From contig CAMNRF010000015.1 of the NCBI GenBank assembly GCA_946551795.1, positions 1 through 36,457 on the forward strand: a stretch of DNA of 36,457 bases. The letters run 5' to 3'. This DNA comes from an uncultured Oscillibacter sp. Its GTDB lineage: Bacteria; Bacillota; Clostridia; Oscillospirales; Oscillospiraceae. Position 1 is the stretch's first letter. Each line of letters opens with the position of its first letter. Shown here piece after piece: positions 14,698 through 28,505 of the stretch. The notes below the pieces were generated by a model. That model saw only the letters and a program-made list of their open reading frames with translations, ran no database searches and was not told the origin of the DNA. A program made the position numbers and the translations under genes.

Positions 14698-15264
14698 TTG
14701 GCTTCGGCGGCGAAGGATCTGCGCTATCGCGGCGGCCGGCCCGCGTCCGTGGACGGCAATCTGGCCCGCAGCCTGGACTTTGAGGTCCGGGAGCGGGAGC
14801 TGCGCCACGCCGGGGAGGCCCCCCGGCACCGGGAGGCGGCCAGGGAACAGCCCAGAGTCCGCAGCCTTCCCAAGGTCCAGCTGCGGGAGGCGCAGCACGT
14901 GGCCCCCCTGGCTGTGGCGGGCGCGGCAGCGGCGGCGGTGCTGGCCGTGCTGCTGCTTTTGAGCTACATCCGGCTGACGGTGCTCTCCGCCGACATGGTG
15001 GAGCTGCGGAGCGAGCTGAAGGTGCTGGAGAAGGAGAACGTGGTTCTCACCACCCAGTATGAGCAGATCTACGACCTGGCCACGGTCAAGGCGGCGGCGG
15101 AGGCCGCGGGCATGACGAAGCCCGGCGCCAGCCAGGTCTACTATGTGGACGGCTCCGGAGGAGACGCCGCCGTGGTGTATCAGCAGGAGGAGACCGGCTT
15201 TTTGGACAAAGTGCGGGACTCGCTCCACCACGGGATCTACGCGGTGGTGGAATATTTCGACTGA
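14698..15264 (+). CDS. ftsL: FtsL-like cell division protein
   Basis: A 188-residue bitopic protein: a long basic cytoplasmic region (1-68), one membrane helix (about 70-91), an extracytoplasmic leucine-zipper-like coil (about 93-127) and a short C-terminal tail. Topology, size and position between rsmH and the PBP gene identify FtsL/DivIC-type, which joins FtsQ/DivIB at the septum. The start is TTG at 14698 with GAGAGGGGG ahead; no ATG fits. Sequence identity to FtsL is always low, so the call rests on topology and context. After the stop come 376 non-coding bases. Confidence 0.82.
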   Translation: MASAAKDLRYRGGRPASVDGNLARSLDFEVRERELRHAGEAPRHREAAREQPRVRSLPKVQLREAQHVAPLAVAGAAAAAVLAVLLLLSYIRLTVLSADMVELRSELKVLEKENVVLTTQYEQIYDLATVKAAAEAAGMTKPGASQVYYVDGSGGDAAVVYQQEETGFLDKVRDSLHHGIYAVVEYFD

Positions 15265-15321
15265 GCGGCGCACTATAATGCTTTGAAGAAGGACCATTGG
15301 CTGACGAGGGGCGGCGCGCCT

Positions 15322-15581
15322 GCCAGCGGCGGTGCTGGCCCCGAAAAACCGGATTGCCTTTTGCCGGCCCATGGGTTTGCAGGGAGCGAGAAGGAGTCTT
15401 CTTGCTCCCTGAATTCGATCTATCGTCACCGCGGTTGAAAAGAAGCATTTACTTCTCTTCAACCCTGGGCGCGTATGCGCCCCAGGAGCCGTGAAACGGC
15501 TTGGCGGTGGACTCAGAACCCGGCACATTTGATGTGCCGCGGGCGATGTCCGCCTTGAAAAGCGGTATGCCGATTTTCAAG
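15322..15581 (+). other. Run of seven stem-loops between ftsL and the PBP gene
   Basis: Non-coding gap 15265-15640. Stems read directly: GCCAGC/GCTGGC (15322-15339); a 14-pair stem beginning CAGGGAGC (15380-15411); GGTTGAA-a-AGAAG with CTTCT-c-TTCAACC (15433-15464); CTGGG-CGC with GCG-CCCCAG (15465-15485); AGCCGT-gaa-ACGGCT (15487-15501); CGGCACA/TGTGCCG (15521-15539); CTTGAAAA-g-CGG with CCG-a-TTTTCAAG (15554-15581). Several follow with only one to twenty bases between them. TATAAT at 15274 lacks a matching -35. No T tract marks any of them as an ordinary terminator. Confidence 0.78.
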
Positions 15582-15640
15582 TGTTTCGACGATTTCAATT
15601 TCAATCTATCACGCCGGAGGGCAGGAGAAGGAGAAGTTCC

Positions 15641-18133
15641 ATGGCAGGCAAGTCCCCGAGAAAAAGCGACGCGGCCCGCAGGGCCAATCAGGTGGTGCGC
15701 GGCAGGACGGTGATCGTCATGCTGCTGCTGGGCGTGGTCACCTTTATCATGCTCTTCTGGAAGCTGTACGACCTGCAGATCCGGCGGCATGAGGAGCTCC
15801 AGAACGAGGCCGCGTTTCAGCAGACCCGGGAGAGTACGGTGGCCGCCTCCCGGGGGACCATCTACGACCGGAACTACCATCCCCTGGCCACCTCCGCCAC
15901 GGCGGAGAATGTGTGCATCTCTCCTCTGGAGCTGGAGGCCTTTGTCAGGAAGCAGGAGGAGGCCAACGAGGAGGCCCGGAAGAAGGCGGAGGAGGCCGGC
16001 AGGACCTACGTCCCCGTCCAGGTCCTGGACGAGGCGTATGTGGCTCGGGGCCTCAGCCGGATTCTGGGCGAGGAGGAGGAGAAGATCCTCCGCCTGGCGG
16101 CGATGACCGAGACCAGCTATCAGCGGGTCACCAGGCGGGTGGAGCAGGACGTGGCCGACGAGGTCCGCCGCTTCATCAACGGCGAGATCGACGATGAGGG
16201 CCGGGAGCTCACCTTTGTCAACGAGGAGGGCAGGACCCGTCTGCTGTCCAACCCCAACAAGGCGCCCACGGCCCTCCAGGGGATCTTCCTGGAGCTGGAC
16301 TCCCGGCGGTACTACCCCTACGGCACCCTGGCGGCCAATGTGATAGGCTTTGTCAACAGTGAGAACCAGGGGGCCTACGGCCTGGAGTCCAAGTTCAACG
16401 ACGTGCTGGAGGGCACCACCGGCTACACCGTGGTCGCCAAGAACGCCCGCAACACGGACCTGCCCTTCCACTATGAGAAGATCATCGACCCGGAGAACGG
16501 CTACGACATGGTGCTGACCCTGGACACCCGTGTCCAGGCCTCCCTGGAGAAGAACATGGAGAGCATGCTGGAGACGTATGACGCCAAAAACGGCGGCACC
16601 GGCATCGTCATGGAGGTCAACACCGGCGCCATCATCGCCATGGCCTCCTATCCCAACTTCGATCCCGCCGACCACAGCACCGTGGTGGACGAGAAGCTCC
16701 GGGCCTCCGTGGACGCGAAGATCGAGGACCTGGAGAAGAAGAAGGACACCTTCGAGACGGAGAAGGAATACAGCGAGGCCATCGACCAGGTTTGGAAGGA
16801 CGCCCAGGGCCTCCAGTGGCGCAACCGCTGCGTCAGCGACACCTATGAGCCCGGCTCCACCTTCAAGCCCATCACTCTGGCGGCGGCTTTGGAGGAGGGC
16901 GTGGTGAACATGAATTCCTCCTTCAGCTGTTCCGGTTCCGTCATGGTCCAGGGCTGGGATAAGCCCTTCTACTGCTCCAAAAAGGCCGGCCACGGCACCC
17001 AGAGTTTGAAGGTGGCCACCGGCAACTCCTGCAACCCCGCCTTCATCTCCATCGGATTGAAGATGGGCACCCAGAAGTACTACAAGTACCTCCGCTCCTT
17101 CGGCCTCATGGACCCCACGGGGTTCGACATGGCGGTGGGCGAGGGCAAGGGCATCTTCGCCGACGAGAAGAGCTTCAACTCCAACGTGGTCTCCCTGGCG
17201 TCCTACGCCTTCGGCCAGACCTTCAATGTCACCCCCCTGGAGCTGATCCGGGCCCAGGCGGCCTGCATCAACGGCGGCTACCTGTACACCCCCTACGTGG
17301 TGGACCAGGTGCTGGACGGGGAGGGCAACATCATCCAGCAGCACGGCGCCTCCACCCCGGTGCGGCAGGTGGTCAGCGAGGAGACCTCCGCCCTGGTGCG
17401 GGAGTGCCTGGAGTACGTGGTGGCCTCCGGCACCGGCAAGAACGGCCAGGTCACCGGCTACCGCATCGGCGGCAAGACCGGCACCGCCGACAAGACCGGC
17501 ACCAAGACCCCCGACAACCCCAAGGGCGACGTGGTGGTCTCCTTCATGTGCTTCGCCCCGGCGGACGATCCCCAGTACATCATGCTCATCACCATGGACA
17601 CCCCCAGCCGGAACACCGGCGTCTATGTCTCCGGCGGCAACATGGTGGCCCCCACGGCCAGCCGCATCATGGGCGAGATATTGCCGGACCTTGGCATCGA
17701 GCCGGACTACTCCTCCTCGGAGCTGCTGGTCTCCGACGTGCCGGTGCCCAACGTGGTGGGGCAGACCCTGGCGGACGCCAGGGCTAAGCTGGAGAGCGCG
17801 GGCTTTGCCTGCCGCACGGTGGGGGACGGAGAGACCGTCACCGCCCAGACCCCGGCGGGGGGCGCCATCGTTCCCAACGACGCCTCCATCATCCTCTACC
17901 TGGGCCAGGAGAAGCCGGACGCCCCCTGTACGGTGCCCAATGTCTCCGGCCGGACCGCGGCGGAGGCCAACCGGATGCTGACCAACGCGGGGCTCATCAT
18001 GAAGATGGCGGGCACCATGGTCACCGGTTCCGGCAACGTCCACGCCATGAGCCAGAACGTGGCGGAGGGCACGGAGCTGCCCGCCGGCAGCGTGGTGACG
18101 GTGTGGTTCGGCGACAGCTCGGTGCTGGACTGA
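15641..18133 (+). CDS. Class B penicillin-binding protein with two PASTA domains (FtsI/SpoVD-like)
   Basis: An 830-residue transpeptidase. One N-terminal membrane helix (about 24-45), a PBP dimerisation region with RGTIYDRN (about 71-78), a transpeptidase domain with the catalytic S406-TF-K409, S463-C-N and K612-T-G motifs, and two C-terminal PASTA domains (about 698-760 and 766-830). It crosslinks peptidoglycan, most likely at the division septum. PASTA domains and position after ftsL fit both vegetative PBP2B and sporulation SpoVD; sequence alone does not separate them, and no second copy is present here. ATG 15641 is preferred because AGAAGGAG sits seven bases ahead. The helical Lys/Glu-rich insert near 112-126 is unremarkable. 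Confidence 0.93.
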   Translation: MAGKSPRKSDAARRANQVVRGRTVIVMLLLGVVTFIMLFWKLYDLQIRRHEELQNEAAFQQTRESTVAASRGTIYDRNYHPLATSATAENVCISPLELEAFVRKQEEANEEARKKAEEAGRTYVPVQVLDEAYVARGLSRILGEEEEKILRLAAMTETSYQRVTRRVEQDVADEVRRFINGEIDDEGRELTFVNEEGRTRLLSNPNKAPTALQGIFLELDSRRYYPYGTLAANVIGFVNSENQGAYGLESKFNDVLEGTTGYTVVAKNARNTDLPFHYEKIIDPENGYDMVLTLDTRVQASLEKNMESMLETYDAKNGGTGIVMEVNTGAIIAMASYPNFDPADHSTVVDEKLRASVDAKIEDLEKKKDTFETEKEYSEAIDQVWKDAQGLQWRNRCVSDTYEPGSTFKPITLAAALEEGVVNMNSSFSCSGSVMVQGWDKPFYCSKKAGHGTQSLKVATGNSCNPAFISIGLKMGTQKYYKYLRSFGLMDPTGFDMAVGEGKGIFADEKSFNSNVVSLASYAFGQTFNVTPLELIRAQAACINGGYLYTPYVVDQVLDGEGNIIQQHGASTPVRQVVSEETSALVRECLEYVVASGTGKNGQVTGYRIGGKTGTADKTGTKTPDNPKGDVVVSFMCFAPADDPQYIMLITMDTPSRNTGVYVSGGNMVAPTASRIMGEILPDLGIEPDYSSSELLVSDVPVPNVVGQTLADARAKLESAGFACRTVGDGETVTAQTPAGGAIVPNDASIILYLGQEKPDAPCTVPNVSGRTAAEANRMLTNAGLIMKMAGTMVTGSGNVHAMSQNVAEGTELPAGSVVTVWFGDSSVLD

Positions 18134-22090: not shown

Positions 22091-22093
22091 AGG

Positions 22094-22386
22094 AAAGAGG
22101 GGACTACGTCCCCCCTTTACGCTCCGCCGGGCTTTGCCCGGCTCCGCTATTCCCCCTGCTCTACCGGGGGACTGGGGGCGGACAGAACTGCTGGAGTTCT
22201 GCCGGCGGCGCGCTCTGACACCAGTGAGGTCCACTCACTGGTGTGTGCGCCCCAAGGGTGCACGGGTCTCGGTATTTTCGCCACGTACACGCCGCGGCGA
22301 AAATGATTTCATTATTTTGATTTGCCCTTGGCAAATCAACCAGGAACCTGCGGTTCCCTGGCCCCTCCCTTAGCGCCTGCGGGCGC
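22094..22386 (+). other. Run of about ten stem-loops between ftsW and murG
   Basis: Non-coding gap 22091-22423. In order: GGGGAC-tac-GTCCCC (22099-22113, flanked by AAAG/CTTT); GCCGGGC-ttt-GCCCGGC (22126-22142); TCCCCC/GGGGGA (22151-22171); CAGAACT/AGTTCTG (22183-22201); ACACCAGTGAG/CTCACTGGTGT (22218-22244); GTGC-CCC with GGG-GCAC (22245-22263); ATTTTCGCC/GGCGAAAAT (22274-22304); TGATTTGCC-ctt-GGCAAATCA (22318-22338); CCA-GGAACC with GGTTCC-TGG (22340-22361); GCGCC/GGCGC (22373-22386). The sequences differ from each other and none has a proper T tract. Confidence 0.82.
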
Positions 22387-27065: not shown

Positions 27066-27069
27066 GCCT

Positions 27070-27279
27070 TGTTTGATAAATGGCGAAATGCCCAACGGCG
27101 AGAGATTTTTCCGACTCGCCAAGAGCCGCCGCAAGCGGCGGTTGCTCGCTGGACGCGCCTGCGGGCGCAGTCGCCAATCAAGGCGATTTTCCTTGCCATA
27201 CTCTGTGTATGGCAAGGAAAATCAACGCAGAGTGGCGGAAAAAGATCCGCTGTTTGGGCGTTTTATCATTTTTCAAACA
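27070..27279 (+). other. 210-base nested, branched RNA fold after ftsZ
   Basis: The outer arms TGTTTG (27070-27075) and CAAACA (27274-27279) enclose GCCCAA/TTGGGC (27090-27095 with 27254-27259), GCG/CGC and an eight-pair TTTTTCCG/CGGAAAAA (27106-27113 with 27236-27243). Inside lie three hairpins: CCGCCGC-aa-GCGGCGG (27126-27141), GCGCC/GGCGC (27155-27168) and a perfect 16-pair stem beginning GATTTTCC (27185-27223). The shape is a closed multi-branch junction, like a folded ncRNA or a MITE rather than a plain 3' UTR. Confidence 0.72.
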
Positions 27280-27297
27280 TGGTCTGAAAAATCTGGA

Positions 27298-27327
27298 AAA
27301 ACCCGCGGGCTTTTGCCTGCGGGTTTT
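27298..27327 (+). terminator. Terminator of ftsZ and the dcw cluster
   Basis: AAAACCCGC-g-GGC pairs with GCC-t-GCGGGTTTT around TTTT. Two more perfect hairpins follow before spoIVB: CAAGGCA/TGCCTTG (27350-27368) and CCGCCGGC/GCCGGCGG (27427-27450). No convincing sporulation-sigma promoter was found in 27328-27479. Confidence 0.85.
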
Positions 27328-27479
27328 CTCTGTGCCCTTGAAAATCGGACAAGGCAGTCTGTGCCTTGGACACGCTGCCGCTTTTTGCAAGGTGTGTTTT
27401 CGCGGCGGAAGCAAATCATAAGAGTGCCGCCGGCGAGGTTTTGCCGGCGGATGTGATTTGATCAAAAGGGGTGATCGCA

Positions 27480-28505
27480 TTGTATGAAGTACCAAAACAC
27501 ACAAAGGGACTGCTGCGGGGCGGCGCGGCGTTCCTTCTGGCCCTGCTCCTCTGTGCCGGAGCGCCCGCGAAAGCGGCGGAGGTGACGGGCGTTTTTTCAG
27601 ATGAGACCGCCCGGATGCTGGTGCCCGTGGGCCACACCGTGGGCATCAAGCTCTTCTCCCGGGGCGTGGTGGTGGTAAAGCTCAGCGACGGCGGCACGCC
27701 CGCCAGGAGTTGCGGACTGCGCACCGGGGATGTGATCGAGGAGTGCGGCGGAGCCGCGGTGACCTCCACCGAACAGTTCCAGTCCCTTCTCCAGGAGAAT
27801 GGGGGCTCTGAGACGGACCTCCAGGTCCGCCGGGACGGCGGCAGCATGACCCTCTCCGTGGCCCCCGCCCGGAACGACCAGGGCGTCTACTGCATCGGCG
27901 CCTGGATTCGGGACAGCATGGCGGGCATCGGCACCATGACCTTTTACGACCCGGCCACCGGCGTCTTCGGCGCCCTGGGCCACGGCATCACCGACGTGGA
28001 TACGGCGCTGCTGATGCCCTTTTCCAACGGCTCCGTTCTGCCCTCCACGGTGAAGGCCGTGAAAAAGGGCGAGGCCGGCGCCGCCGGAGAACTGCGGGGG
28101 GATTTTGACCTCACCCGGGATCTGGGCCGGCTGTACGCCAACACCAGCAGCGGCATCTTCGGCACGCTGGAGACCGACGGGCTGCGCTCCGACGGGGCCG
28201 TGCCCACCGGGCAGCCCAGGGAGGGCCCCGCGGTGATCCGCGCCAACGTCCAGGGGGACCAGGTGGCGGAGTATGACATTGACATCGTCAAGGTGATTCC
28301 CGGCGCCGGGGACGGACGGGACATGGTGCTCTCCGTCACGGACCCGGACCTCATTGCCGTCACCGGCGGCATTGTTCAGGGCATGAGCGGCAGCCCCATT
28401 CTCCAGAATGGGAAAATCGTGGGGGCCGTGACCCATGTCCTGTTGAATCAACCCACAAAAGGTTATGGAATTTCCATCGAAAATATGCTGAGCGCAGCGG
28501 GATAA
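27480..28505 (+). CDS. spoIVB: SpoIVB serine peptidase
   Basis: A 341-residue S55-family protease of the sporulation signalling pathway, secreted from the forespore to trigger processing of pro-sigmaK. An N-terminal hydrophobic segment ends near AKAAEV (about 11-33), a PDZ domain follows (about 48-120), and the peptidase domain holds H168 in GHGITD, D288 and S303 in GMSGSP; the spacing D288-S303 equals that of the catalytic pair in Bacillus SpoIVB. The start is taken as TTG 27480 because AAAAGGGG lies eight bases ahead; GTG 27471 would overlap that site. The classical neighbour spo0A lies 1.3 kb downstream, with two unrelated genes between. Confidence 0.94.
   Translation: MYEVPKHTKGLLRGGAAFLLALLLCAGAPAKAAEVTGVFSDETARMLVPVGHTVGIKLFSRGVVVVKLSDGGTPARSCGLRTGDVIEECGGAAVTSTEQFQSLLQENGGSETDLQVRRDGGSMTLSVAPARNDQGVYCIGAWIRDSMAGIGTMTFYDPATGVFGALGHGITDVDTALLMPFSNGSVLPSTVKAVKKGEAGAAGELRGDFDLTRDLGRLYANTSSGIFGTLETDGLRSDGAVPTGQPREGPAVIRANVQGDQVAEYDIDIVKVIPGAGDGRDMVLSVTDPDLIAVTGGIVQGMSGSPILQNGKIVGAVTHVLLNQPTKGYGISIENMLSAAG

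Follow-up and report, generated by a model that had tools for sequence, protein, structure and literature searches.

A hairpin-rich gap between ftsL and a class B PBP gene of Oscillibacter: a conserved leader and a MITE-like cloverleaf element

In the window, the whole 36,457-nucleotide stretch of Oscillibacter DNA that was analysed, a gap full of hairpins separates ftsL from a class B PBP gene. What are these hairpins, and do they belong to the PBP gene? The genes are arranged in the order mraW, ftsL, class B PBP with two PASTA domains, murE, mraY, ftsW, and murG, where murE is a Mur ligase named from its position. The two genes bordering the gap are:

14698–15264, + strand, ftsL, named by its position between mraW and the PBP gene, without a Pfam hit
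15641–18133, + strand, class B PBP of the SpoVD/FtsI type, with Pfam domains Transpeptidase, PBP_dimer, and PASTA (two copies)

A composite gap

The gap extends over 376 bases from the ftsL stop (15264) to the ATG of the PBP gene (15641), the length given in the earlier note. The seven hairpins described there are all located, at 15322–15339, 15380–15411, 15433–15464, about 15465–15486, 15487–15501, 15521–15539, and 15554–15581, and an eighth, degraded hairpin is present at 15539–15553. Their stability exceeds chance. The RNA minimum free energy (MFE) of the whole gap has a z score of −4.5 (0 of 100 shuffles are as stable), and that of 15421–15600 alone a z score of −6.7, with no shuffle equally stable. 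The hairpin at 15380–15411 has 14-nt arms, with one G-U.

The seven hairpins had been treated as a single feature, which they are not: the hairpin at 15380–15411 is ancestral and conserved in the genus, and the later ones are part of a dispersed repeat that inserted here. A search of the same genome with the gap sequence yields nine further copies of most of the second half, at 71–85% identity, and one weak, short match to the first half. Among 60 congeners (Oscillibacter/Dysosmobacter, including Oscillibacter sp. 1-3, O. valericigenes, and Dysosmobacter MAGs), the second half again occurs in many copies. The strong first-half matches, in genomes G051 and G053, are the same ftsL–PBP gap. The gaps of these two genomes are 191 and 207 bases long and lack the second half; the N-terminal region of the PBP is 90–91% identical. 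We conclude, with a probability of roughly 0.85, that the gap is of composite origin, an old leader with a mobile element inserted in it.

The gap is indeed unusually long here, but ftsL and the PBP gene never touch in this genus, where gaps range from 83 to about 450 nt. When relatives are compared, as had been proposed, a promoter-like pair and one conserved hairpin are nearly always present, and the extra hairpins are no property of the gene pair itself.

The ancestral leader

The ancestral part covers 15249–15411, and the first 155 bases of the gap are orthologous across the genus. It contains four features:

15249–15256, + strand, −35-like element GGAATATT within the last ftsL codons, identical in nearly all of 67 loci
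15274–15279, + strand, −10-like element TATAAT, 17 nt downstream of the −35-like element
15322–15339, + strand, short hairpin GCCAGC-ggcggt-GCTGGC, poorly conserved
15380–15411, + strand, ancestral conserved hairpin of the PBP leader, with 14-nt arms and one G-U, in 90 of 97 distinct gaps

In Oscillibacter and near relatives, the gap begins with the promoter-like pair GGAATATT-N17-TATAAT, which in the form GGAATATT-N-CAYTATAATG occurs only once in the genome under study. The start of the gap, a few bases from the ftsL stop, reads GCACTATAATG or a close variant, first in 30 congeners and then in 67 loci of named genomes. The last ftsL codons are GGAATATTT. The glutamate codon within the −35-like element is GAA at all 67 loci, compared with 339 of 1029 (33%) glutamate codons in the rest of ftsL (Fisher p = 3e-31); these last codons also show a preference for TAT (p = 8e-12). 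Because of this codon bias, the −35 region at the end of ftsL is conserved at the DNA level, beyond what the protein needs.

The sigma-E consensus consists of a −35 kmATATT and a −10 CATACAmT, 13–15 nt apart. Its −35 is found in nearly all loci. Its −10 is matched, or nearly so, in four outgroup loci with the same −35, which carry CATACAAT (L217), CATAGAGT (L221), CATATAGT (L223), and CATACAGT (L224), but not in crown species. The −10 of crown Oscillibacter, CACTATAATG, is nearer to sigma-A than to sigma-E, although a scan found no sigma-70 pair. Upstream regions of spoIVA in the same genus contain GTCATACTT-N-CATAGAGT. In eight Oscillibacter genomes (L262–L269), GACGGGCYGTCATACTT...GGACATAGAGT is strongly conserved upstream of spoIVA and probably represents a sigma-E promoter.

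The promoter of spoVD in Bacillus subtilis is sigma-E dependent and lies in the dcw cluster. Since the outgroup −10s CATACAAT, CATAGAGT, and CATACAGT resemble sigma-E sites, the promoter at the ftsL–PBP gap is probably of a sporulation type, like that of spoVD. On the comparison with spoIVA, with B. subtilis sigma-E promoters, and with spoVD, a sigma-E gene there, we consider it slightly better than an even bet that the ancestral promoter is of the sporulation sigma-E type. The −10 would then have drifted towards TATAAT in most Oscillibacter species. As in B. subtilis, the putative promoter directly precedes a dcw PBP with PASTA domains, and the outgroups have sigma-E-type −35 and −10 elements. 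Unlike in B. subtilis, it starts within ftsL, as there is no separate pbpB here; a conserved hairpin follows, and the Oscillibacter −10 has drifted to CACTATAATG. The dcw PBPs of sporulating Clostridia are likely SpoVD or SpoVD-like (PMC10693644), which fits the sigma-E reading.

The conserved hairpin has the form GGGGAGTRAGAAG-loop-CTTCTTRCTCCCC and is present in 65 of the 67 named loci. In the 90 distinct gaps that contain it, there are 37 distinct arm pairs with loops of 3–7 nt, and the stem changes are compensatory or involve G-U pairs. Because the loop varies and G-U pairs occur, an RNA hairpin is favoured over a protein-bound DNA dyad. An intrinsic terminator was considered and rejected, as a proper T run is lacking and a terminator scan gave no call; 3–5 T are found within the 10 nt following the hairpin in 85 of 90 sequences. 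The short hairpin at 15322–15339 pairs as GCCGGC/GCCGGC in L065, differs in L066, and is missing from most relatives.

The ancestral promoter and hairpin probably control the PBP gene. The promoter-like pair may drive separate transcription of the SpoVD-like PBP; in the PBP mRNA, the hairpin may act as RNA, in processing, stability, or protein binding. Present in genomes of spore-formers, the two features bear on whether the dcw-encoded PBP of Clostridia is FtsI, SpoVD, or both.

At one locus, L193 (CANQPD010000021.1), the ftsL–PBP gap contains two copies of the conserved leader hairpin, each with about 40 nt of its surroundings. Between them lie about 200 nt of different, hairpin-rich sequence, an arrangement resembling the insertion of a further element accompanied by a long duplication.

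The inserted element and its fold

The second half of the gap is the inserted element, with the following parts:

15421–15594, + strand, MITE-like cloverleaf element, whole insertion, inserted at TA; covariance-model match of 159 bits
15421–15427, + strand, left terminal inverted repeat TATCGTC (consensus TATAGTCA, longer form TATAGTCANCRCAGTTGAAAAG)
15433–15464, + strand, hairpin H1 of domain I
15465–15486, + strand, hairpin H2 of domain I
15487–15501, + strand, hairpin H3 of domain I, with a GAA triloop
15521–15539, + strand, hairpin H4 of domain II
15539–15553, + strand, hairpin H5 of domain II, degraded in the ftsL–PBP copy and intact in most other copies
15554–15581, + strand, hairpin H6 of domain II
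15588–15594, − strand, right terminal inverted repeat GACGATT (consensus TGACTATA)

Copies of the element are non-coding, measure 175–195 bp, and share alignable ends, TATAGTCA...TGACTATA, with unrelated flanks. Read outward-in, both ends match TATAGTCANCRCAGTTGAAAAG, which has 107 matches with at most two mismatches in genome G001 and none for a reversed control. Three orthologous empty sites contain a single TA: that of the L003 copy in G024, that of the L004 copy in G012, and the ftsL–PBP gap in G051. Copies have two TA where empty sites have one, a comparison made with diverged relatives rather than near-identical strains, and the ends themselves start with TA. A longer target duplication, indicated by AATTCGATCTATC and AATTTCAATCTATC beside the ftsL–PBP copy, is not seen at other copies and was discarded. 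The insertion at 1501–1687 of L004, with its empty site in L110, lies in the TA of a TATCAT, which resembles a −10 box and precedes a gene; the insertion recreates TATCAT at its own right end. A TCA follows several of the other copies as well.

The covariance model recognises 13 copies in the genome under study, 12 of them outside the ftsL–PBP gap; by the same model, 22 of 86 congeners carry the element, some with at least 31 copies. One congener, the distant G055, has an independent copy in the mraW–ftsL gap (L043), in the orientation opposite to the genes. Under stricter filters, an order-level search of 245 genomes reveals the element in only one other genome, G274, and plasmid and phage records gave no match. 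The three copies in G274, which belongs to another genus, are single-domain forms of 116 bp, TATAGTTAACGCA...TGCGTTTACTATA, with three hairpins; a contig from a viral collection (L284) holds one single-domain form of 100 bp. The 97-nt model matches in G055 were rejected as single-domain forms, since the contigs end there. In the close relative L222, whose PBP is 89% identical, a 56-bp remnant, TATAGCC...GACGATA, occupies the same place with the same ends, and pairs of terminal inverted repeats in G001 span 56, 135, 157, 172, and 193 bp. Judged from these lengths, internal deletion of the element is common. Three 56-bp elements in G001 (C157:3206-3261, C32:3643-3698, and C95:2056-2111) consist of just the two terminal repeats back to back.

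The element is probably non-autonomous, with a transposase that would act in trans on the ends of about 22 bp at TA dinucleotides, as for MITEs. No pair of terminal repeats 260–5000 bp apart was found in the loci examined or among the listed G001 matches. A helper search, confined to the IS630-type DDE_3 family and run on fragmented assemblies, detected no such transposase in 8 of 13 element-bearing genomes. IS630 was rejected as the helper on this count, and the end motifs of the element are not paired around the copies in G033. The IS630-type insertion sequence itself is about 1 kb long and occurs in several nearly identical copies (G033 C7:162241-162663 and others, L232, L237, L241, and L242); it is not flanked by the end motifs of the cloverleaf element.

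In the consensus fold, a helix of the terminal inverted repeats encloses two tandem domains, each composed of a closing stem and three hairpins. Domain I is closed by TCACCG/CGGTGG around H1–H3 and domain II by CAAAACA/TGTTTTG around H4–H6; the linker is GACTTCATAG. Across 19 copies, 93% of the pair cells are paired, a figure that falls to about 40% when the partners are slid, and 19 pairs have changed on both sides, compared with a mean of 6.1 in shuffles (0 of 500 shuffles reach this count). The stems of subfamilies in other species differ in sequence, with domain II closed, for example, by GTCAGCACAG/CTGTGCTGAC, and most of these subfamilies, predicted individually, adopt the same two-domain fold. 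The two-domain structure is kept by paired changes. Echoes of the outer ends are found in several subfamilies at the end of domain I, TTGACTTCATAG, and at the start of domain II, CATAGTCA. These inner ends, and the single-domain forms found elsewhere, suggest that Oscillibacter carries a dimer in which a single-domain cloverleaf is repeated in tandem.

Since pairing is maintained, the folded single strand appears to matter, either as DNA in transposition or as RNA that keeps insertions in transcripts quiet. A speculative reading, which we think less likely than not, is that this is a mobile lineage with the fold as its sole cargo, a three-hairpin cloverleaf doubled into two domains in Oscillibacter, with stems rewritten between subfamilies. 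Its architecture might then be kept because the folded single strand is recognised or because it renders insertions in transcripts harmless, which we hold just as tentatively. The usual definition of a small mobile repeat is based on its end sequences; in this element, the conserved trait is the fold of the interior, and the stem sequences turn over completely. This raises the question of what selects shape in a non-coding transposon, for which natural variants are available for testing.

The strongest alternative is that template switching (quasi-palindrome correction) matches the arms regardless of their sequence, so that the paired changes would not reflect selection on the fold. In all hairpins, H1, H2, and H5 among them, the arms are matched even where subfamily sequences differ completely, as expected if one arm is copied from the other, and for single hairpins template switching is a serious rival. 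It explains the long-range helices less well: the domain-closing helices, each spanning about 80 nt, and the helix of the terminal repeats (helices 1, 2, and 6) also stay paired, and domain II closes in some subfamilies as GTCAGCACAG/CTGTGCTGAC in place of CAAAACA/TGTTTTG. G-U pairs are also tolerated, and loop and linker motifs (GACTTCATAG) are conserved. As a full account of the paired changes, we judge template switching rather unlikely.

A two-domain fold with covariation, 175–195 nt in length and present in many copies, might also be expected of a structured noncoding RNA gene or an RNA-guided mobile RNA (omega-RNA, IStron-like) with a function in trans. This is unlikely: the element is nearly palindromic, and the model matches the reverse strand too in many copies, as expected for DNA bounded by terminal inverted repeats. 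There are also sub-forms measuring 56, 100, and 116 bp, and we know of no partner protein for such an RNA.

Still less likely, the hairpin run would be an RNA that regulates the PBP gene in cis, an attenuator or riboswitch that evolved in place. The run does lie in the highly structured 5′ leader of one gene, and one hairpin and a promoter-like pair are truly conserved there. However, neither G051 nor G053 has the six downstream hairpins in this gap, and the genome under study carries them at 12 further loci; an Rfam match and a terminator were both looked for and not found. For 15421–15594, a riboswitch or attenuator was rejected on account of the dispersed copies and empty sites; the reading holds only for the ancestral hairpin.

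The hairpin run is not tied to this gene pair, one of two outcomes that the earlier note had named as counting against its view, and belongs to a mobile repeat dispersed through the genome; the other, a decayed gene, was suggested by the unusual gap length and is ruled out by the gaps of relatives, which hold no gene here, the gap consisting of repeats and leader.

On the preferred reading of an old leader carrying a mobile element, the element in the PBP mRNA would be an insulated structure, tolerated rather than used, as it is positioned downstream of the ancestral hairpin and ahead of the ribosome-binding site, with the promoter-like pair left intact. Placed in the leader of an essential operon, its effect on the mRNA is measurable.

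Related and neighbouring repeats

The element is short (<600 bp) and non-coding, with many dispersed copies, terminal inverted repeats, and empty sites in relatives, all features of MITEs. We use the term MITE-like only, because an autonomous partner was not found (DDE_3 search, fragmented assemblies). Its closest counterparts are the Correia elements of Neisseria, from which it differs in being a two-domain cloverleaf. Correia repeat enclosed elements (CREE/NEMIS) are a MITE family of 100–157 bp with more than 100 copies and no coding capacity; their terminal inverted repeats start with TATAG, they insert at TA, form stem-loops in mRNA leaders, and include internally deleted short forms (PMC2649163). 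TATAG-type ends, a TA target, small size, many copies, the lack of coding capacity, leader stem-loops, and short forms are shared. The full CREE terminal repeat, TATAG[CT]GGATTAA..., is absent, TATAG alone being common to both. Unlike in CREE, the interior comprises two tandem three-hairpin domains with long-range covarying closing helices, and the element is limited, in the samples searched, to Oscillibacter and rare relatives.

Like REP/REPIN sequences, which are linked to RAYT, IS200/IS605-like transposases, the element has hairpins that probably matter as folded single strands in a mobile step. Unlike them, it has a TA target, true terminal inverted repeats, and domains of three hairpins rather than one or two REP hairpins. 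RUP has a TA target and an IS630 helper; BOX is modular but, to our knowledge, has no cloverleaf with terminal inverted repeats. RUP, BOX, and SPRITE are described as small dispersed structured repeats of the Gram-positive Streptococcus pneumoniae (PMC3049150), a description that applies to the present element as well; it has no Rfam hit. An Rfam search of the window, of the gap itself, and of 15 further loci gave no match above the gathering score, and a literature search on MITEs of Oscillibacter or Faecalibacterium returned nothing relevant.

The gap between ftsL and the PBP gene had been likened to the ftsW–murG gap, as the same architecture with unrelated sequences. Tandem hairpins are present there too, but they belong to another family of dispersed repeats, of which that gap holds one copy, and the likeness arises because different families of dispersed hairpin-rich repeats are involved. 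This second repeat occupies 22091–22321 of the window and has 10 further matches in the genome. It often starts right at a stop codon, reads TAAAGAGGGG...CCCCCCTTTA, and contains ACACCAGTGAnnnnnTCACTGGTGT. A third hairpin-rich repeat region lies at 27066–27480. The ftsW–murG gap and this region represent two further dispersed families, unrelated to the cloverleaf element. Pieces of the third region are found again, in differing combinations, at about 20 genomic sites, suggesting that its repeats are modular.
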